64,000 nt of DNA from positions 310,001 to 374,000 of the forward strand of contig NZ_KB849790.1 of the NCBI RefSeq assembly GCF_000369045.1. Reading direction: 5' to 3'. This document shows, one piece after another, positions 26,407 through 36,241 of this stretch; position 1 is the first letter of the stretch; every line of letters begins with the position of its first letter. The notes beneath the pieces were generated by a model. The model was not told where the DNA came from, searched no databases, and saw nothing but the letters and a program-made list of their open reading frames with translations. Origin of the DNA: Acinetobacter pittii ATCC 19004 = CIP 70.29 (lineage in GTDB: Bacteria; Pseudomonadota; Gammaproteobacteria; Pseudomonadales; Moraxellaceae). A program made the position numbers and the translations under genes.

Positions 26407-27300
26407 TTAGATTCCTGCATCTGTTGGGTTAGCTTTTAATTTCTTATAAGATGAACTTTGTTGCATGTTCAAATTCGTGTTTTTTGGTGGAATTGGAGAT
26501 AAGAACCACTTCTTATATAAAGCGTCCATTTTACCAGTTTTCCACAAGTTATTTACAGTACGGTCTGCAACCGCTTTAAATTTTGGATCATCTTTAGCAA
26601 GCATAATTCCATAAGGTTCAGATGAAAGTACCGGACCTACAATTGCGAAAGCTTTAGGTGTAGAAGACTTAGCAATCAAGCCTGCTAAAATATTATCATC
26701 CATTACAAATGCAGCAGCACGGCCAGATGCCATCATGGCAAAAGAGTCAGCATGATCTTTACCATAAATATTTTGAACATTAACAGCCTGACCTTTTTCA
26801 TTCATCTTGATGTATTTGTCAGATGTAGTGCCTTGAGTAGTAACAACTGCTTTACCATTTAAGTCTGCCAAACTCTTAATGCCAGAGTTTGCTTTAACAG
26901 CCATGCGCACTTCTGTTGCATAGTAGTTAGTTGAGAAACCAACTTGTTGCTGACGTTGTTTAGAGTTTGTAGTGGTACCACATTCCATATCGATATTGCC
27001 TGCCAAAAGCTCAGGAATACGTGTTGATGAAGTTACTGCCTTGTACTCAACTTTTAAGCCAGGCATTTTCAATTCTTTTTTAATGTCATTTGCAAACTGG
27101 TTACAGATATCGACTGCATAACCTACTGGTTTACCTGCAACAACATATGAAATTGGATCTGAGGATTCTCGATGACCAATTACGATTTTTCCGGTACTTT
27201 TAATTTTAGCTAATGTATCTGCTGCTTGAATTTGAGAAGTAGCGCCAACCGTACAAAGCATAACTGTTGAAATAATGAGAGAGGTTGCAGAACGTTTCAT
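26407..27300 (-). CDS. gltI: Glutamate/aspartate periplasmic binding protein GltI
   Basis: A 297-residue periplasmic solute-binding protein. The signal peptide MKRSATSLIISTVMLCTVG… ends at QIQA before ADTLAKIKSTGKIVIGHRESSDP. The HRESS segment and the central MECGTTTNSKQRQQQVGFS are characteristic of the acidic amino acid binders, as opposed to other polar amino-acid binders. It captures glutamate or aspartate for GltJKL. It is first in the operon, with a near-perfect sigma-54 promoter about 80 bp upstream. Confidence 0.94.
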   Translation of the reverse strand: MKRSATSLIISTVMLCTVGATSQIQAADTLAKIKSTGKIVIGHRESSDPISYVVAGKPVGYAVDICNQFANDIKKELKMPGLKVEYKAVTSSTRIPELLAGNIDMECGTTTNSKQRQQQVGFSTNYYATEVRMAVKANSGIKSLADLNGKAVVTTQGTTSDKYIKMNEKGQAVNVQNIYGKDHADSFAMMASGRAAAFVMDDNILAGLIAKSSTPKAFAIVGPVLSSEPYGIMLAKDDPKFKAVADRTVNNLWKTGKMDALYKKWFLSPIPPKNTNLNMQQSSSYKKLKANPTDAGI

Positions 27301-27833: not shown

Positions 27834-28598
27834 TTAAATTCCGCGCCAATCTACTCGCGCATTACGCTCAGTTTGATATATTCTTAAAACATACTGACCT
27901 AGAGGTAAATCGAGTAAATTTTGCTGATAGTTATTCCATTCTTCCGAAACACCTTCAGCTTCTTCCCGCTCCCATGGCGTGCCCTTTATTTCTAATAAAG
28001 GAGCAAGCATAGAACATACAGAAATATCAGCAAGACTTAAGCGATCACCTACCATATAACGTGCCTGATTTTCGATTAAGCAGTTATTTAGTTCATTTAT
28101 GAGTTCATCCATACGTTCTTTTGACTGGTTGACTAGCTCTTCTTCAAGTTTATAGTTCTTCTTTACCAGTGTTTTGAGGAATGGCTTCGATATTTTTTCA
28201 AACTGACGTAAATAGCCTTGTTCACCCATCATAATTTCTAAAGCATGGTCTCCATGCGCCAACGTGTGAGCTAAAGCCCAACGACGGACATGAATACCCA
28301 GCTCATCAGCCAAACTATCTATTTTTAATGTTTGTTGCCTTAATTGTTCATCACGACGTAACAGTGAATGCTCTGGATAAGTATCATCCAGATAAAGTGC
28401 AATTTTAGTCGACTCAGCGATCCATTGATGATCATCTTTCAAAATAGGCAGTAAATTTTGGCCTGTTTTGAGTTGTGCAAAAGCACGATGAAAGCCTGGA
28501 ATTAAGTTATGAGCCACATAATCAAGTTCTTTATGGTCTAACAACCAGCGAGCTTTTTCACAATAATGGGACAAAGGAAACTGATACAAAACCCGCAT
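27834..28598 (-). CDS. Glutathione S-transferase family protein
   Basis: A 254-residue GST. The N-terminal thioredoxin-like domain begins MRVLYQFPLSHYCEKARWLLDHK, where the SHYCEKAR segment resembles the catalytic site of omega/beta-like GSTs with serine or cysteine. The conserved cis-proline region (NLLPILKDD) and ES-T (WIAESTKIALYLDD) bind glutathione. The helical C-terminal domain has GDRLSLADISVCSMLAPL, the GST capping-box region. It is longer than typical GSTs (about 210). It is divergent from the sulfur operon; glutathione chemistry may be useful with organosulfur compounds, but no direct link is shown. Confidence 0.9.
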   Translation of the reverse strand: MRVLYQFPLSHYCEKARWLLDHKELDYVAHNLIPGFHRAFAQLKTGQNLLPILKDDHQWIAESTKIALYLDDTYPEHSLLRRDEQLRQQTLKIDSLADELGIHVRRWALAHTLAHGDHALEIMMGEQGYLRQFEKISKPFLKTLVKKNYKLEEELVNQSKERMDELINELNNCLIENQARYMVGDRLSLADISVCSMLAPLLEIKGTPWEREEAEGVSEEWNNYQQNLLDLPLGQYVLRIYQTERNARVDWRGI

Positions 28599-28967: not shown

Positions 28968-30179
28968 ATGTCTAATTCTCTATCAAAAACGACTGCATAC
29001 GTCCAAATCATTCAAAATGATCAACAAGCGATTAATGCTGCTTATCAAGTGGCGGATTATACTTTAGAGGGTCGTAATACACGTGATCAACAACGCTTAT
29101 TACCGCATGAGCAAATCGAAAACTTTAGCCAAAAAGGCCTAGGTGGTATTCGCATTGCAAAAAAATACGGCGGTGCTTTTGTTTCCAATAAAACACTGGC
29201 ACAAGTTTTCCGTATTCTAAGTAAAGGCGATGCGAATGTTGGTCAGATTCCACAAAATCAGATTAGCTTGTTAAATCTGATTGAAATCATGGGTACAGAA
29301 CAACAAAAACAATTTATCTTTTCAGAAATATTAGCCGGTAAGCGTCTTGCCAATGGTGGACCAGAACGTAATACCCATGATTCAAAAACCTTAAAAACCA
29401 CTCTTACTGTTGAAAACGGCAAATATATTTTAAACGGCGAAAAGTTTTATTCGACGGGAACAAGTTTTGCGCATTGGCTTGCAATTAAAGCGATTCATCC
29501 CGAAGGCTATGTCGTTTTAGTGATTGTTAACCGAGAGGCTCAAGGTATTGAAGTCATTAATGACTGGAATGGATTTGGGCAACGTACGACAGCGAGTGGT
29601 ACGGTTAAATTAAATCATGTTGAAGTTAATCCAGAACTCATTTTTGATGAACGCTTATTAACTAAAGCCCCTACTTATCGCGGTGCTTATTCTCAGTTAT
29701 TACAAGTGGCAATTGATGTAGGGATTGCAGAAGCCGCATTTGACGATACTTTATCAACTATTCATAAAGCACGTCCAATTATTGATGCAAATGTTGAAAA
29801 AGCCAGCTTTGAACATTACACCCTGCAAGAGGTAGGTAAGTTAAATATTTTGCTCGATGCTGCAATTTTATTATTGGATGAAGCTGCTGAATATTTAGAT
29901 GAACTTGACCAACTTCAAACGGTGACTGATGAACAAGTAGCTAAAGCTTCAATTTTGGTGGCTGAAGCGAAAGTCTACGCCAATGATGCGGCTCTACAAA
30001 TTTCAGAAAAATTGCTGGAGCTGGGTGGTAGTCGTTCAAGCTTAAGCCAACATAATTTAGATCAACATTGGCGAAATGCCCGTGTACATACCTTACACGA
30101 CCCTGTTCGCTGGAAATTACATGCCATTGGCAATTATTACCTTAATGGTCATTTCCCTACCCGCCATGCTTGGATTTAA
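28968..30179 (+). CDS. SfnB/DszC-like acyl-CoA-dehydrogenase-fold flavin oxygenase (first copy)
   Basis: A 403-residue protein of the acyl-CoA dehydrogenase fold, in the sulfur-acquisition branch (SfnB, DszC) that works as a flavin-dependent oxygenase and not on acyl-CoA. Evidence: GLGGIRIAKKYGGAFVSN, GQIPQNQIS, LNGEKFYSTGTSFAHW, GFGQRTTASGTVKLNHVEV, and the C-terminal LLELGGSRSSLSQHNLDQHWRNARVHTLHDP-type block that is diagnostic of this branch. I start at 28968, where AAGGTG lies upstream. It is first of a seven-gene operon and is followed 12 bp later by a paralogue. It would oxidise an organosulfur compound with reduced flavin from elsewhere; the substrate is unknown. Confidence 0.88.
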   Translation: MSNSLSKTTAYVQIIQNDQQAINAAYQVADYTLEGRNTRDQQRLLPHEQIENFSQKGLGGIRIAKKYGGAFVSNKTLAQVFRILSKGDANVGQIPQNQISLLNLIEIMGTEQQKQFIFSEILAGKRLANGGPERNTHDSKTLKTTLTVENGKYILNGEKFYSTGTSFAHWLAIKAIHPEGYVVLVIVNREAQGIEVINDWNGFGQRTTASGTVKLNHVEVNPELIFDERLLTKAPTYRGAYSQLLQVAIDVGIAEAAFDDTLSTIHKARPIIDANVEKASFEHYTLQEVGKLNILLDAAILLLDEAAEYLDELDQLQTVTDEQVAKASILVAEAKVYANDAALQISEKLLELGGSRSSLSQHNLDQHWRNARVHTLHDPVRWKLHAIGNYYLNGHFPTRHAWI

Positions 30180-30191
30180 GGAGAAATTGTC

Positions 30192-31415
30192 ATGACTTCA
30201 TATCAATCGGTTCAAACCAAACAAACATCGGCATCTGGCCAAGCGCACATTATTCAAAATGATGCTGAAGCATTAGAAGTTGCCAAACAGTTTGCTGAGC
30301 AATTTAAAAAAACCGCAGTTGAGCGAGATGCTAAACGAATTTTACCCTATACCGAAATCGATGCTTTGAGCCAATCTGGTCTTTGGGCAATTACAGTACC
30401 TAAGCAATATGGCGGTGCCGAAGTTTCAAGCCATACCGTTGCTAAAGTAATCGCTCTTTTAAGCGGTGCCGATGGTTCAATCGGACAAATTCCACAAAAC
30501 CATTTTTATGCTTTAGAAGTATTACGAAATACAGGCACAGAAGCTCAAAAACAACGTTTATATGGCGAAGTTTTAAATGGCACTCGCTTTGGTAATGCAC
30601 TTGCTGAGTTTAAAACCAAAACTTCAACTCATAAACAAACCAATATTCGTCCATACGAAAATGGATATCTCATTCAGGGTGAAAAGTTTTACTGCACAGG
30701 AAGTTTATTTGCTCACCGTATTCCAACCTTAGTTTTAGACGATGCGGGTCGAGAGTATCTAGCCTTTGTAAAAAGTGGTTCACAAGGATTAAAACTTGTT
30801 GATGACTGGTCTGGCTTTGGACAGAAAACTACAGGCAGCGGTACAGTTAAATTTGATCAGGTTTTTGTCGATGCAGATGATGTTATTCCTTTTGATACTG
30901 CATTTTTACAACCAACCTTAGTGGGTCCTTTTGCGCAAATTATGCATGCATCGATTGAGGTCGGTATTGCACGTGCAGCCTTTGAAGAAAGCTTGCAAAG
31001 AGTACATCAAGCTCGCCCATGGATTGATTCAAATGTAGAAACAGCCAACCAAGATCCTTTAACGATTTATGAATTAGGACGTATTGCTGTCGATGTACGG
31101 GCAAGCGAAGTGTTATTAAAACAAGCTGCGCAATCAATCGATGCCGCAAAAATTGAGACCACACCTGAAACTATTGCTAAAGCATCCATTGATGTGGCTA
31201 AAGTGCGTGCTCATAGTAGCGATATCGCTCTAAAAGCATCGTCTAAGCTGATTGAACTTGCTGGTAGCCGTGGTAGTCAGTCTCAAGATGGTCTAGACCG
31301 TTTTTGGCGTAATGCCCGTGTACATACCTTACATGATGCCGCACGATGGAAATATTACTTTATTGGGAACTACGTTCTTAACGGTGTGCTTCCACCTCGT
31401 CGGGGGACATTGTAG
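30192..31415 (+). CDS. SfnB/DszC-like flavin oxygenase (second copy)
   Basis: A 407-residue paralogue of the preceding gene with the same architecture: ITVPKQYGGAEVSSH, GQIPQNHFY, IQGEKFYCTGSLFAHR, GFGQKTTGSGTVKFDQVFV and the C-terminal LIELAGSRGSQSQDGLDRFW block. The shared QIPQN and NARVHTLHD segments show it arose by tandem duplication, but the two differ enough to suggest separate substrates or steps. Its start follows GGAG. Its last base overlaps the GTG start of the next gene (TAGTG), so the pair is translationally coupled. Confidence 0.9.
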   Translation: MTSYQSVQTKQTSASGQAHIIQNDAEALEVAKQFAEQFKKTAVERDAKRILPYTEIDALSQSGLWAITVPKQYGGAEVSSHTVAKVIALLSGADGSIGQIPQNHFYALEVLRNTGTEAQKQRLYGEVLNGTRFGNALAEFKTKTSTHKQTNIRPYENGYLIQGEKFYCTGSLFAHRIPTLVLDDAGREYLAFVKSGSQGLKLVDDWSGFGQKTTGSGTVKFDQVFVDADDVIPFDTAFLQPTLVGPFAQIMHASIEVGIARAAFEESLQRVHQARPWIDSNVETANQDPLTIYELGRIAVDVRASEVLLKQAAQSIDAAKIETTPETIAKASIDVAKVRAHSSDIALKASSKLIELAGSRGSQSQDGLDRFWRNARVHTLHDAARWKYYFIGNYVLNGVLPPRRGTL

Positions 31416-32827
31416 TGGCAGATTTCAAAGCGAAAGAAATTTTACTCAATGCCTTTGACATGAACTGTGTTGGTCATATCAATCATGGCTTATGGACACA
31501 TCCACGTGATGAATCACATCGTTTTAACGAACTCAGTTATTGGACAGAACAAGCCAAGACCTTAGAAAGTGGTTTATTTGATGGTTTATTTATTGCGGAC
31601 ATTACAGGTGTGTATGACGTCTATCAAAACGGTATTGACCTGACTTTAAAAGAGTCCATTCAGCTTCCGAGCCATGACCCATCTACACTCATTTCAGCTA
31701 TGGCAGCAGTCACTCAAAACTTAAGTTTTGGGGTCACTGTAAACTTAAGCTATGAGCATCCGTATCAATTTGCACGCCGCTTTGCGAGTCTCGACCATTT
31801 AACTCAAGGTCGTATTGGCTGGAATATCGTGACAGGTTATTTAGATAGCGCCGAACGCTTAATTGGTCAAAAAGGTTTAAAAGACCACGATGCTCGCTAT
31901 GAACAAGCCGAAGAGTTTTTAGAACTTTGCTATAAATATTGGGAAGGTTCATGGGAAAACGACGCAGTTAAAAAAGATAAAGCACAGCGTGTTTTTACAG
32001 ACCCTTCTAAAGTTCACACCATTCACCACCACGGAAAATATTATCAGAGTGAAGGTGTTTTTCAGGTGTCTCCTTCTGTGCAACGCACCCCAACACTGTT
32101 TCAAGCAGGTGCTTCACCAAAAGGCATGCAGTTTGCGACTCGCCATGCTGAATGTGTATTTATTGGAGGCGACAAACCCGAAAAAATACGCGAACAAGTG
32201 AAAAAGATTCGTGCTCTTGCAGAACAGCAAGGCCGTTCAGCAGATGACATTAAAGTCTTTGTCGGTATAACCGTTGTTGTTGCTGAAACACATGATCTCG
32301 CTGTACAGAAACTGAATGAATATCGTCAGTATGCAAGTCCTGAAGCAGGCTTAGCACATTATGCGAGTTCAACTGGTATCGACTTAAGTAAATTTGCCGA
32401 CGATGAAGCGATTCCTTACCAAAAAAGTAACAGTATTGTTTCGATTACCGAAAAATTTAAAGAGCAACAAATCACGAAAAATGACTTAAAAGCTCAGCAT
32501 GTTTTAGGTGGGCGTTATCCCCTCATCGTGGGTAGTGGCGAAGAAGTTGCTGAATACTTAATTCATCTTTTAGATGAAACAGATATTGATGGCTTTAATT
32601 TGACACGTACAGTTGCACCAGAGTCTCACCACGACTTTATTCGCTTGGTTATTCCTGAGCTACAACAGCGTGGTCGCTATAAAACTGCATATAAAACGGG
32701 TTCACTGCGGAACAAAATTTTTAATCGGGGTGATCAATTACCAAAACAACACCCTGTTCAAGCGTTCCGATGTAGTCCCTATAACAACAGCAAAAACCTA
32801 ACAACAATTGAAGAAATAACCGCTTAA
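31415..32827 (+). CDS. FMN-dependent monooxygenase, NtaA/SnaA/DszA (LLM) family
   Basis: A 470-residue TIM-barrel, luciferase-like flavin monooxygenase. Evidence includes AFDMNCVGHINHGLWTHPRD at the start, SHDPSTLISAMAAVTQNLSFG, LDHLTQGRIGWNIVTGYLDS and LFQAGASPKGMQFATRHAECVFIGG, the block typical of NtaA/SnaA/DszA. Members cleave C–S or C–N bonds using FMNH2 from a separate reductase, which is not visible here. It starts with GTG overlapping the previous stop by one base. Together with the DszC-like pair it resembles a two-stage desulfurisation pathway. The C-terminal ~40 residues (after GRYKTAYKTGSLRNKIF) are a tail. Confidence 0.92.
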   Translation: MADFKAKEILLNAFDMNCVGHINHGLWTHPRDESHRFNELSYWTEQAKTLESGLFDGLFIADITGVYDVYQNGIDLTLKESIQLPSHDPSTLISAMAAVTQNLSFGVTVNLSYEHPYQFARRFASLDHLTQGRIGWNIVTGYLDSAERLIGQKGLKDHDARYEQAEEFLELCYKYWEGSWENDAVKKDKAQRVFTDPSKVHTIHHHGKYYQSEGVFQVSPSVQRTPTLFQAGASPKGMQFATRHAECVFIGGDKPEKIREQVKKIRALAEQQGRSADDIKVFVGITVVVAETHDLAVQKLNEYRQYASPEAGLAHYASSTGIDLSKFADDEAIPYQKSNSIVSITEKFKEQQITKNDLKAQHVLGGRYPLIVGSGEEVAEYLIHLLDETDIDGFNLTRTVAPESHHDFIRLVIPELQQRGRYKTAYKTGSLRNKIFNRGDQLPKQHPVQAFRCSPYNNSKNLTTIEEITA

Positions 32828-32841
32828 ATTTGGAGATAGAC

Positions 32842-33672
32842 ATGGCTCAAACAGCCTCAAAAAAATGGCTAGGCGTAGGCTTAGTCGTTGTAGTCCTTAT
32901 TGTTGCTTTATTCTTTTGGAATAAACATCGCCAAAGTGGCTCAAATGAACTTGTGATTGGTATTAGCCCACCATTTGCAAAAACTTTACAAGCTGCTGCC
33001 GATGAAGCAAAGAAACAGGGTTTAAATGTAAAACTGGTCGAATTTTCTGACTGGAATACACCAAACATTACTTTAAATCACGGGGATATTGATGCGAACT
33101 TTTTCCAGCACCAACCTTTCTTAGATAATGCAATTAAAGAAACTGGCTTTAAATTAAAGGCATTTGCAGTGGGTGCAGCATCACATGTGGGACTTTATTC
33201 AAAGAAGTACAAAAGCTTAGATGAATTGCCACCAAACGCGCGCGTAGTCATTCCAAATGATCCAGTCAATCAAGGTCGTGCCCTGCTACTCTTACAGCAA
33301 GCTAAATTAATAACGCTTAAAGATTCAAATAATCATTTATCTGCACTAAAAGATGTAGTTTCAAACCCTAAAAATTTGCAATTCGTAGAGGTTGAAGGAC
33401 CACAAACTGCTCGTGCAATTGATGATGTTGACTTGGCTTTTGGCTATCCGCATTACCTACGCTTAGCAAAAACAGCTGACCCTGAAAGTGCACTTCTACT
33501 TGATGACAATACCAATAAACGTTATGCAATTTTGTTTGTAGTGCGTGATGACTACCAAGATAAGGGCGACAAATTAAAGAAATTTGTTGAGATCTATCAA
33601 AACTCGCCAAAAGTTAAAGCTGTGTTAGATGCTGAGATTGGGCCAACACTTTGGTTCCCTGGCTGGAAGTAA
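32842..33672 (+). CDS. MetQ/NlpA family substrate-binding protein, membrane-anchored (first copy)
   Basis: A 276-residue protein with the fold of the methionine-binding MetQ/NlpA lipoproteins (VIGISPPFAKTL, FSDWNTPNITL, GDIDANFFQHQPFL, SHVGLYSKKYKS, FVEVEGPQTA). It lacks a lipobox: no cysteine is present at the N-terminus. Instead residues ~9–27 form an uninterrupted hydrophobic helix before FWNKHRQSG, so it is probably held in the inner membrane by an uncleaved signal anchor. I start at 32842 with GGAG upstream. Given the operon, its ligand is likely an organosulfur compound rather than methionine; that is inference. Confidence 0.9.
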   Translation: MAQTASKKWLGVGLVVVVLIVALFFWNKHRQSGSNELVIGISPPFAKTLQAAADEAKKQGLNVKLVEFSDWNTPNITLNHGDIDANFFQHQPFLDNAIKETGFKLKAFAVGAASHVGLYSKKYKSLDELPPNARVVIPNDPVNQGRALLLLQQAKLITLKDSNNHLSALKDVVSNPKNLQFVEVEGPQTARAIDDVDLAFGYPHYLRLAKTADPESALLLDDNTNKRYAILFVVRDDYQDKGDKLKKFVEIYQNSPKVKAVLDAEIGPTLWFPGWK

Positions 33673-33685
33673 TAACGGAAAGATT

Positions 33686-34519
33686 ATGGCGATTCAGTTC
33701 AAACAGCATAAACCTTGGTTACTCGGAATTACGATTTTAATCGTAGTTCTGGGCCTCGTAGGTTACCGTTATATTAAAAATAAACAAGCCGATGATGTTT
33801 TAACGATCGGGATTAGCCCGCCTTATGCTGAGCTATTACAAAGCGTTGCCAATGAAGTAGAAAAGCAAGGTGTTCATGTCGAACTCGTTGAATTTTCTGA
33901 TTGGCGAGCACCCAATGTTGCCGTACAAAACGGCGATATTGATGCGAACTTTTTCCAGCAAAGCGTATTTCTACGTAATGCTGTTAAAGAAACGGGCTAT
34001 GACCTACATGCATTTGGTGTGGGTTCAGGAAGTCATGTCGGTTTATATTCAAAAAAATATAAATCACTTGAAGACCTTCCTTCAAAAGCACGTGTAGCTA
34101 TTCCAAACGATCCGGTCAATTTAGCCCGTGCTTTAATTTTATTGCACCGTGCAGGTTTAATTCAACTTAAAGACATTAATAATGAACTTTCAACCACTCA
34201 AGACATTATTGCTAATCCCAAACAGCTAAGCTTTGTTGAGGTTGAAGGCCCTCAAACAGCACATGCATATAACGATGTCGATTTAATTTTCGGCTTCCCT
34301 CACTACTTAAAAATGGCAAAGGTAACCGACCCACATAGCGCATTATTTTTAGATCCAATCGATAAAAAATATGCAATTTTGTTTGTGACCCGTCGCGATT
34401 ACCAAGATAAAAACCAAAAACTTGCAACCTTTGTTAAAGCATTCCAGAACTCAAAACAAGCACAAGACATTCTGGATAAAGATTTTGGCCAAGGTATGTG
34501 GTTTCAAGGCTGGAAATAA
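33686..34519 (+). CDS. MetQ/NlpA family substrate-binding protein, membrane-anchored (second copy)
   Basis: A 277-residue tandem paralogue of the preceding protein, sharing ISPPYAELLQSVANE, GDIDANFFQQSVFL, SHVGLYSKKYKS, AIPNDPVNLARAL and FVEVEGPQTA. It too has no lipobox cysteine; residues ~12–30 (LLGITILIVVLGLVGY) form the anchor. The start at 33686 has GGAAAG upstream and is 13 bp after the first copy's stop. Two binding proteins feeding one MetNI transporter suggest it imports two related ligands. Confidence 0.9.
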   Translation: MAIQFKQHKPWLLGITILIVVLGLVGYRYIKNKQADDVLTIGISPPYAELLQSVANEVEKQGVHVELVEFSDWRAPNVAVQNGDIDANFFQQSVFLRNAVKETGYDLHAFGVGSGSHVGLYSKKYKSLEDLPSKARVAIPNDPVNLARALILLHRAGLIQLKDINNELSTTQDIIANPKQLSFVEVEGPQTAHAYNDVDLIFGFPHYLKMAKVTDPHSALFLDPIDKKYAILFVTRRDYQDKNQKLATFVKAFQNSKQAQDILDKDFGQGMWFQGWK

Positions 34520-34530
34520 GGAGAATGACA

Positions 34531-35601
34531 ATGGTGAGTTTTGGATCACAAGTTGATTTTTCTCTACCCCATATCAAAATTCGTGGTTTAAATAAGTTTT
34601 ACCAATCGCAGGGTCAAAAACTGCATGCCTTAAAAGAAATTAACCTTGATATTCCTCAAGGTAAGATTTTAGGCATTATTGGTAAAAGTGGTGCAGGAAA
34701 ATCTTCCCTACTCCGCACTTTAAATGGCTTAGAACAAGTAAATACAGGCAGTATTCATATTCATCAACAAAACATTGCTGAATTGAGTCATGCCGAGCTT
34801 ATTAAAACTCGCCAACGAATTGGAATGATTTTTCAACATTTCAATTTAATGTCTGCAAAAACAGTCTGGGAAAATGTGGCATTGCCTTTAAAAGTTTCCA
34901 ATTACAACAAAGCAGATATCGACCAACGTGTAAATGAAGTTTTGGCACTCGTAGGTCTTGCAGATAAGTCTGGCTACTACCCATCGCAACTTTCAGGCGG
35001 ACAAAAGCAACGTGTCGGTATTGCACGTGCACTTGTTCACCACCCAGAAATTTTGCTTTGTGATGAAGCCACCTCGGCACTTGACCCTGAAAGTACCGCC
35101 ACTATTTTGGCTTTACTTAAAAAGATTAATCAGGAACTGGGTCTAACGATTGTACTCATCACTCATGAAATGCAGGTCATTCGAGAAATTTGTGATCAAG
35201 TGGTGGTGATTGATCAAGGTGAGATAGTAGAGGCTGGACAAGTTTGGTCTGTATTTTCACGACCAGAACAACAAATTACTCAAGAATTGTTAAACCTTGA
35301 GCAAATTACCCTGCCTTTTAAAATCAGTCCTCTACCCGATGAAGATTCGACTCATATTATTGTAAAACTGAAATATGAGGCTGAAGCACATCAGGTTCCA
35401 GATATTCAAGAATTACTTGCCAAATTTAAAGCGCCCATCAATTTATATCAAAGTCAGGTCGATACCATTCAAGGGCATATTATTGGTTCACTTTTAGTCG
35501 GTATTCCTAACGTAGAAATTGATATTTCATCTATACGACAAGATGCATTAACTGCAATTGCACAATTTGAGGTACTTGGCTATGCACGACCAGCTCATTG
35601 A
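34531..35601 (+). CDS. metN: MetN-type ABC transporter ATP-binding protein
   Basis: A 356-residue ABC ATPase of the methionine/MetN group. Walker A is GKSGAGKSS, signature LSGGQKQRVGIARAL, Walker B ILLCDEATSALD and H-loop LITHEMQV. A C-terminal ~90-residue NIL domain (from about residue 265, with IIVKLKYEAEAHQ and GHIIGSLLVGIPNVEI) is the domain that in E. coli MetN senses methionine and shuts off transport. The start at 34531 follows AGGAG with good spacing; ATG 34525 is too close to it. It shares 20 bp with the next gene. Confidence 0.93.
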   Translation: MVSFGSQVDFSLPHIKIRGLNKFYQSQGQKLHALKEINLDIPQGKILGIIGKSGAGKSSLLRTLNGLEQVNTGSIHIHQQNIAELSHAELIKTRQRIGMIFQHFNLMSAKTVWENVALPLKVSNYNKADIDQRVNEVLALVGLADKSGYYPSQLSGGQKQRVGIARALVHHPEILLCDEATSALDPESTATILALLKKINQELGLTIVLITHEMQVIREICDQVVVIDQGEIVEAGQVWSVFSRPEQQITQELLNLEQITLPFKISPLPDEDSTHIIVKLKYEAEAHQVPDIQELLAKFKAPINLYQSQVDTIQGHIIGSLLVGIPNVEIDISSIRQDALTAIAQFEVLGYARPAH

Positions 35602-36241
35602 TTTATTAATTACTGGAACTGTAGATACCTTACTCATGGTAGGTGCATCTGCATTTATTGCTTTTTTAATTGGCTTACCGATTGCTGTTGTTTTAGTCAG
35701 TACTTCTGAGCACGGCATTCATCCGTCACAAAAGATTAATCAAGCTTTAGGTTGGGTCATCAACATTACTCGCTCTGTACCCTTTCTTATTTTAATGGTT
35801 GCGCTTATTCCGCTTACTCGCTGGATTGTGGGTACAAGTTATGGGGTTTGGGCAGCTGTTGTTCCGCTGACTATTGCTGCAATTCCTTTCTTTGCGCGTA
35901 TTGCAGAAGTCAGCTTACGCGAAGTCGATCAAGGCTTAATTGAAGCTGCACAAGCCATGGGTTGTAACCGCAAACAAATTATTTGGCATGTACTTTTACC
36001 AGAGGCTTTGCCAGGTATTGTGGCAGGCTTTACCGTGACTATTGTGACTATGATTAACTCCTCTGCGATTGCTGGTGCTATTGGTGCAGGTGGTCTAGGA
36101 GACATTGCTTATCGTTATGGCTATCAACGTTTTGATATGCAAATTATGTTGGCTGTAATTTTAGTGCTTATTGTTTTAGTCATGTTAGTACAAGCGACTG
36201 GTGATGCATTAGCCCAGCAACTTGATAAACGTAAAGTTTAA
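35582..36241 (+). CDS. metI: MetI-type ABC transporter permease
   Basis: A 219-residue permease of the MetI type with five membrane helices and the EAA loop (EVSLREVDQGLIEAAQAMGCNRKQIIWHVLLPEALPG). It starts 20 bp inside the end of metN (MHDQLIDLL), with GAGG upstream, so the two are coupled. It is the last gene of the sulfur operon and is followed by a hairpin terminator. Confidence 0.94.
   Translation: MHDQLIDLLITGTVDTLLMVGASAFIAFLIGLPIAVVLVSTSEHGIHPSQKINQALGWVINITRSVPFLILMVALIPLTRWIVGTSYGVWAAVVPLTIAAIPFFARIAEVSLREVDQGLIEAAQAMGCNRKQIIWHVLLPEALPGIVAGFTVTIVTMINSSAIAGAIGAGGLGDIAYRYGYQRFDMQIMLAVILVLIVLVMLVQATGDALAQQLDKRKV

Follow-up and report, generated by a model that had tools for sequence, protein, structure and literature searches.

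A MetNIQ-type importer in a conserved Acinetobacter operon with SfnB-family oxygenases and a putative role in sulfur scavenging

Why should an importer whose subunits bear the family names of a methionine transporter share an operon with flavin-dependent oxygenases? The question is raised by seven genes in a 64,000-nucleotide stretch of the Acinetobacter pittii ATCC 19004 = CIP 70.29 genome (contig NZ_KB849790.1, positions 310,001 to 374,000; hereafter the window), an assembly of 3.83 Mb in 13 contigs. The genes encode two SfnB-family oxygenases (SfnB1 and SfnB2), an NtaA/DmoA-family monooxygenase (gene 3), two MetQ-like binding proteins (SBP1 and SBP2), a MetN-type ATPase and a MetI-type permease. 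The operon is genuine, conserved and sulfur-linked, and its component families are known; it is the importer twist that is unrecognised. Its products very probably take in a sulfur-containing molecule when sulfate runs short and release the sulfur by oxidation. On balance, and with confidence only a little above even, we propose a more specific scavenging route, in which an anionic organosulfur compound that has no free alpha-amino group is imported, oxidised at its sulfur and cleaved at a C-S bond. More tentatively, somewhat short of even confidence, we suggest that the MetQ-like proteins of this cassette constitute a distinct importer subfamily without alpha-amino-acid recognition, for an unrecognised anionic thioether, sulfoxide or sulfone such as 3-methylthiopropionate, and that they provide a dedicated route into desulfurisation by SfnB1, SfnB2 and the monooxygenase.

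The binding-protein pocket and its likely ligand

The pocket was compared at positions 69, 86, 88, 91, 144, 202 and 229 of the E. coli numbering, where we take the residue labels Y69, F86, H88, Y91, R144 and N202, placed by alignment motif, to be correct. Across these positions SBP1 reads W-F-H-F-R-Y-I and SBP2 W-F-Q-F-R-F-I, as against Y-F-H-Y-R-N-N in four solved MetQ-family proteins. N229, the asparagine that holds the alpha-amino and carboxyl groups of methionine, is isoleucine in both window proteins, and the N202 position is replaced as well. In Neisseria meningitidis MetQ the substitution N238A weakens L-Met binding more than 1e5-fold (PMC6739813), and in E. coli MetQ N229A lowers L-Met affinity by five orders of magnitude (PMC12357092). 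Because the arginine and the aromatic wall are kept while the asparagine is lost, the pocket suggests a ligand that is anionic, includes a thioether-like part and lacks a free alpha-amino group. The earlier note on this DNA, made from the sequence by a model, had left open whether methionine is excluded; the pocket residues argue that it is, without proving it.

The altered pocket is associated with the monooxygenase well beyond the window. Our binding-protein tree held 65 rows linked to such an enzyme and 25 unlinked rows, which include the four solved proteins, after 10 repeated rows of 100 had been left out. I229 occurs in 55 of the 65 linked rows and W69 in 58, and N229 in 23 of the 25 unlinked ones. 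A clade of 58 rows (support 100/99) is drawn entirely from loci with such a monooxygenase, and SBP2 defines an Acinetobacter-only clade of 13 rows (support 100/100). Among 55 proteins from 14 genomes, where linkage means lying within 7 kb of a listed monooxygenase match, another residue takes the place of N229 in 21 of the 23 linked proteins and in 3 of the 32 unlinked ones (p = 5e-10, a value overstated by counting related proteins as independent). This count omits three fragments from genome G485, one over the cut-off at 28.6 bits and two under it, and one locus scored as unlinked, L161, holds a weak relative (33%).

Several observations weigh against our reading of the pocket. E. coli MetQ N229A still transports L-Met at one fifth of the rate (PMC12357092). 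Seven of the 65 linked rows group with unlinked ones, outside the 58-row clade; exceptions in the 14-genome count run both ways (2/23 linked proteins keep N229, 3/32 unlinked proteins are without it), and one unlinked protein, whose genome is among those with the cassette, shows the complete pocket signature. The MetQ/NlpA model TIGR00363 (cut-off 228.85 bits) scores SBP1 and SBP2, at 177.7 and 163.2 bits, higher than the genome's other MetQ, at 132.3 bits, all three lying below the cut-off. Evidence on methionine regulation from MetN is mixed: N295 is needed for trans-inhibition of E. coli MetN, N295A raising the Ki for L-Met 28-fold (PMC12357092), and at the equivalent position asparagine is found in both MetNs of this genome, the window's and the other one, but in none of 36 other cassette MetNs. 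That asparagine in the window MetN, together with the family names, is what would favour a second, ordinary methionine importer that shares an operon with unrelated flavin enzymes by chance. We consider this very improbable, since the association of importer and oxygenases recurs across families, the methionine-binding asparagine is replaced, and the genome holds another metNIQ set whose MetQ has both a lipobox and N229. The same genome also encodes an orphan MetQ lipoprotein (L024:4446-5324, + strand), with no metN or metI among reading frames of at least 120 amino acids in 10 kb.

SBP1 and SBP2 also appear to be anchored through a hydrophobic N terminus. Neither SBP1 nor SBP2 has a cysteine in its first 40 residues and thus neither has a lipobox, Cys19 being present in the genome's MetQ at locus L025. 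Both open with a run of hydrophobic residues that has basic residues on either side, no cleavage motif being visible by eye, and a like start was seen by eye in the other Acinetobacter cassette binding proteins; those of family f21, presumably Pseudomonas, show, by eye, signals with endings such as FA-AD or QA-AD. The A. baumannii ATCC 17978 protein A1S_1485 ('metQ') was detected with 8 peptides, solely in the membrane fraction, and its level fell 2.4-fold, together with those of SsuD, SsuA, MsuE and MsuD, in a macAB-tolC mutant (PMC8792954). A1S_1485 is probably SBP1, because the five tags separating it from A1S_1490, which is GltI (PMC5757984), fit the window order from gltI to SBP1. Elsewhere in the A. 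pittii genome, TauA (L023:2119-3159, - strand; TIGR01729, 404 bits) also has an uncleaved-looking hydrophobic anchor, and an SsuA-like protein (L017:305-1321) an ordinary-looking signal, both as judged by eye.

Conservation of the cassette and its three oxygenases

The seven genes lie on the + strand with successive gaps of 12, -1, 14, 13, 11 and -20 bp (Table 1), and the monooxygenase starts with GTG overlapping the sfnB2 stop codon (TAGTG). Gene order and coupling were as the earlier note described them, including the TAGTG junction and the 20-bp metN/metI overlap, and its SfnB, MetQ-like and MetI family calls hold against curated models. The cut-offs are 430.9 bits for TIGR04022, 279.7 for TIGR03860, 27 for PF03180 and 212 for PRK10782, and both SfnBs, gene 3, both binding proteins and MetI exceed them. 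The window MetN lies below the TIGR02314 cut-off (337.9 versus 499.7 bits), as does the genome's other MetN (385.5 bits); it matches the E. coli MetN structure 3dhw with 278.4 bits.

Table 1. Genes of the operon and neighbouring features, in window positions
Gene	Product	Position	Strand	Support
gltI	GltI	26407-27300		
GST-like gene	Glutathione S-transferase (GST)-like protein	27834-28598	-	GST_N_3
sfnB1	SfnB-family (DszC-like, acyl-CoA-dehydrogenase fold) flavin oxygenase, position-1 type	28968-30179	+	TIGR04022 499.9 bits; position-1 clade
sfnB2	SfnB-family oxygenase, position-2 type	30192-31415	+	TIGR04022 597.6 bits; position-2 clade
gene 3	NtaA/DmoA-family flavin mononucleotide-dependent (luciferase-like, TIM-barrel) monooxygenase	31415-32827	+	TIGR03860 518 bits
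SBP1	MetQ-like binding protein, N-terminal hydrophobic anchor, altered pocket	32842-33672	+	PF03180 246.5 bits
SBP2	Second MetQ-like binding protein, Acinetobacter-only clade	33686-34519	+	PF03180 222.8 bits
metN	MetN-type ATPase, C-terminal NIL regulatory domain	34531-35601	+	TIGR02314 337.9 bits; PF09383
metI	MetI-type permease, 20-bp overlap with metN	35582-36241	+	PRK10782 221.9 bits

A match to gene 3 of at least 69% identity is present in 69 of 99 Acinetobacter genomes, and any match at E <= 1e-60 in 74. We fetched 20 loci from those 69 genomes, chosen for spread, and because the order sfnB1-sfnB2-monooxygenase-SBP1-metN-metI is kept in all 20, the operon is not a chance arrangement. SBP2 is present in 12 of these loci and missing in 8. 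The six core genes likewise occur in 14/14 named Acinetobacter loci and SBP2 in 11/14, a set in which L168 and L173 appear to be repeats of L067 and L077. Compared with the window, the six genes of A. pittii ANC 4050 show 96-99% identity, and metN there follows SBP1 with SBP2 cleanly missing in between.

Outside Acinetobacter, 31 loci were fetched, of which 23 matched gene 3 better than its paralogue. MetQ-like, MetN and MetI proteins accompany the monooxygenase in 16 of these 23 and, together with two SfnBs, in 13; the cassette is common to Acinetobacter, probably Pseudomonas, and other Pseudomonadota. The 23 named non-Acinetobacter loci mostly hold a monooxygenase of the paralogue type, several of them still with MetQ-like genes nearby. 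Cassettes of family f50 carry more MetQ-like genes than any Acinetobacter locus here (four in L099, three in L102 and L108). In three loci of one genus in family f21 (L091:11136-15520, L092 and L093) a second unit of SfnB, DmoA-like monooxygenase, MetI-like and MetQ-like genes immediately precedes the cassette; the pocket of the binding protein in this unit reads F Y Y F R F E, with glutamate at the 229 position, which suggests another ligand.

These neighbourhoods bear on an alternative in which the operon would salvage amino-acid sulfur, the importer carrying methionine or cysteine derivatives (sulfoxide, sulfone, S-alkylcysteines or N-acylated forms) that the monooxygenases desulfurise. Bacillus S-alkylcysteine salvage operons offer a parallel. 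The MetQ-like proteins and MetNI are what such a pathway might employ, the methionine site still has its arginine and aromatic wall, the loss of N229 would also be accounted for by an N-acyl group, and in presumed Pseudomonas loci an amino-acid importer (ATPase, permease and binding protein), cystine-type by eye, lies just beyond the cassette (L087:14176-16385, - strand). No recurrent acetyltransferase or deacetylase gene was seen beside the cassette in 11 mapped outside loci, which were inspected by eye and without a family scan, and we regard amino-acid salvage as unlikely, if still worth serious attention.

The two SfnBs are 42% identical to each other. Both lie far below the 850-bit cut-off of the DszC equivalog NF043015 (165.9 bits for SfnB1, 208.5 for SfnB2); their best matches are DszC-type enzymes, SfnB2 matching DszC with 189 bits, followed by methanesulfinate monooxygenase. 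By eye, a C-terminal HTLHD stretch is kept in both where DszC has HSLHD, a motif that we assume to be catalytic. In a maximum-likelihood tree of 90 SfnB-type proteins, some of whose long branches are unsure, a position-1 clade of 36 rows (support 100/93) unites the 21 Acinetobacter first genes with the first members of all 14 outside pairs and one other row; a position-2 clade of 31 rows (support 98/99) unites the 21 Acinetobacter second genes with 10 of the 14 outside pairs, the other four falling elsewhere. Because position-1 and position-2 genes form separate cross-family clades, the pair is, on this phylogeny, older than the split of these bacterial families, with its order kept, and did not arise by a recent duplication that served a second substrate. 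The two SfnBs look like a single machine. The earlier note had taken the duplication of oxygenase and binding protein to suggest two substrates, and this view has to be given up: an ancient, position-fixed SfnB pair does not imply two substrates, and SBP2 is a variable, dispensable, Acinetobacter-specific extra.

The third enzyme was previously called DszA/NtaA-like; it exceeds the cut-off of TIGR03860 and is less close to DszA than to LadA and DmoA. Among solved structures gene 3 scores best with LadA (3b9n; 476.3 bits) and DmoA (6ak1; 441.6), followed by riboflavin lyase (334.2), HcbA1 (314.6) and DszA (233.5), and we therefore assign it to the NtaA/DmoA family. It fails the SfnG dimethylsulfone monooxygenase model TIGR04021 (91.3 bits, cut-off 382.95). 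Its sequence is 100% identical to the copy in Acinetobacter sp. WC-141 and 98-99% identical to copies in A. nosocomialis, A. calcoaceticus, A. pittii, A. lactucae and A. seifertii. The match to LadA raises the alternative of a long-chain alkane monooxygenase in an operon for alkane use. DmoA, a sulfide enzyme, is nearly as close, and gene 3 is accompanied by two SfnBs and an ATP-binding cassette (ABC) importer in all 20 fetched Acinetobacter loci; on this gene context alkane oxidation is so improbable that we set it aside. A paralogous pair, a DmoA-like monooxygenase with a DszC-like enzyme, lies near tauA on contig C6 (L023:6508-9372, - strand), about 53 kb from the cassette, and in loci L084 and L085 such a pair adjoins the cassette on the opposite strand. 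The C6 paralogue is nearer to DmoA (557.8 bits) than gene 3 is, and gene 3 belongs to a separate, importer-linked group.

Proposed pathway, flavin supply and regulation

In the pathway that we propose, the MetNI-type ABC importer, with one or two membrane-tethered MetQ-like proteins, would bring in an anionic organosulfur compound, for example a thioether or sulfoxide carboxylate. SfnB1 and SfnB2 would oxidise its sulfur stepwise, from sulfide to sulfoxide to sulfone, and the NtaA/DmoA-family monooxygenase would break the C-S bond, with reduced flavin supplied in trans by MsuE. Sulfinate and sulfonate steps could then be carried out by a DszC/MsuC-like enzyme, SfnG and SsuD, all encoded elsewhere in the genome, to yield sulfite for cysteine. 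The sequence analysis establishes which genes are present, how they are ordered and conserved, the age of the SfnB pair, the repeated linkage of monooxygenase and importer, the changed pocket and the presence of an MsuE-family reductase elsewhere; the substrate class, the order of reactions, the division of labour between the SfnBs and the supply by MsuE in this strain are elements that we infer. Flavin-dependent S-oxygenase activity has been shown for group D enzymes of A. baylyi (PMC13352529) and is predicted for the SfnBs of the window.

No match to FMN_red (PF03358) or Flavin_Reduct (PF01613) was found within the 64-kb window, which bears out the expectation that a flavin reductase must be supplied from elsewhere. 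Model cut-offs are reached by an MsuE-family reductase and SfnG, encoded together on contig C12, and by SsuD on contig C13. In A. baylyi ADP1, group D enzymes Dms1, Dms2 and Dms3 oxidise dimethyl sulfide (DMS) to dimethyl sulfoxide (DMSO) and dimethyl sulfone (DMSO2), powered by MsuE, and six pathway genes are induced without sulfate (PMC13352529).

The ADP1 pathway suggests another role for the A. pittii operon, as a branch of dimethyl sulfide/sulfone metabolism in which DMS and DMSO would be substrates of SfnB1 and SfnB2 as Dms-type enzymes, charged intermediates such as methanesulfinate entering through the importer. Dms1 and Dms2 of ADP1, group D monooxygenases acting on DMS and DMSO, do have consecutive locus tags (PMC13352529). 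A further sfnB/msuC-like pair lies on contig C13, about 0.38 Mb from ssuD, to whose SfnB the window SfnB1 and SfnB2 are 43% and 45% identical. A comparison of the C13 SfnB with seven further Acinetobacter genomes gave, in six of them, no match at E <= 1e-60 apart from two neighbouring genes whose coordinates put them next to the cassette monooxygenase, so the cassette may be the main source of SfnB in those six. Being uncharged, however, DMS and DMSO2 should not require an ABC importer, and the cassette has its own third monooxygenase. The C13 pair is also the likelier counterpart of Dms1 and Dms2, because its distance from ssuD resembles the 391 locus-tag steps between dms1-dms2 and ssuD in ADP1 (PMC13352529). 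We therefore think it rather unlikely that the operon belongs to DMS metabolism.

Published expression data on presumed orthologues offer indirect evidence for control by sulfur starvation. In A. baumannii AB5075, ABUW_2333 is gltI, its product being cleaved after residue 26 (IQA-AD; PMC6679007). Since this fits the gltI of the window, with one GST-like gene between it and sfnB1, ABUW_2335 and ABUW_2336, both named as SfnB family, are probably the orthologues of sfnB1 and sfnB2. With vitamin B12 these two genes rise by log2 values of 3.55 and 4.28, in a table that also lists sfnG, msuE, ssu and tau genes (PMC12892962), and they are among the sulfur genes changed by saccharin (PMC12081710). Without glutathione ABUW_2336 falls, as does ABUW_2337, described as an oxidoreductase (PMC12914303), and SfnB-family genes, whose loci are not named in the source, rise in a cysE sat double mutant (PMC13344012). 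These responses fit a sulfur-starvation regulon, and they support the idea, already put forward in the earlier note, of an operon for organosulfur uptake plus oxidation.

To the contrary points raised for the pocket must be added four that concern the operon as a whole. The expression data depend on an orthology read from gene order rather than from A. baumannii DNA; 7 of the 23 outside loci have no linked MetQ-MetNI set; a substrate-revealing gene was not found among the cassette neighbours; and in ADP1 no TIM-barrel enzyme oxidised DMS, according to the available text (PMC13352529).

A sigma-54-like pattern was found in 0 of 21 upstream regions, one of them only 157 bp long. Promoter and terminator scans gave 17 and 6 hits as against 21.6 and 7.1 in shuffles, no richer than chance sequence. 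A TACTTTAG element is matched about 310-345 bp upstream of sfnB1 in 11 of the 21 regions. Among nine other loci of the same genome it was found in two, at one site within a reading frame of L022 and at two sites in L024 that lie away from any nameable gene start. The element may belong to the GST-like gene, which is divergent from the operon and separated from it by a 369-bp gap (26% GC). Of the 20 Acinetobacter loci fetched, 16 have that gene next to their cassette, with which it is possibly co-regulated.

Significance and relation to known systems

Our literature search found no reported substrate for the importer-oxygenase set of Acinetobacter and other Pseudomonadota. Should the pocket argument prove right, these transporters are misnamed as 'methionine ABC transporter', and a proteomics paper reads the presumed A. 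baumannii copy as methionine import (PMC8792954). A sulfur nutrient would then remain to be found, perhaps as part of terrestrial organosulfur turnover.

Comparison with known systems places the operon among familiar enzymes joined to an altered importer. With E. coli MetNIQ it shares the fold families and the subunit set, and it differs in the replaced N229 and N202 positions and in lacking a lipobox. The Dms1/Dms2/Dms3-MsuD-MsuC-SsuD-MsuE pathway of ADP1 employs the same enzyme classes, acyl-CoA-dehydrogenase-fold and TIM-barrel flavin monooxygenases, and features flavin supplied in trans by MsuE and induction without sulfate; in contrast to the window operon, no MetNIQ-type importer is described in the available part of that paper (PMC13352529). 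In Pseudomonas protegens the consecutive tags PFL_0244 and PFL_0245, likened here by description only, are two SfnB-family genes lowered in a gacS mutant along with oscA and sulfur transport genes (PMC12892942). The dibenzothiophene operon dszABC of Rhodococcus likewise sets DszC-like S-oxygenases before a TIM-barrel monooxygenase that cleaves C-S bonds; the window SfnBs, however, lie far below the DszC cut-off, gene 3 is nearer to LadA and DmoA, and the window operon includes an importer and has no DszB-type gene among its seven. DmoA (6ak1) and LadA (3b9n), members of the same family TIGR03860, are the best solved relatives of gene 3, but it is the C6 paralogue that stands nearer to DmoA, gene 3 having its place in the separate group that travels with the importer.

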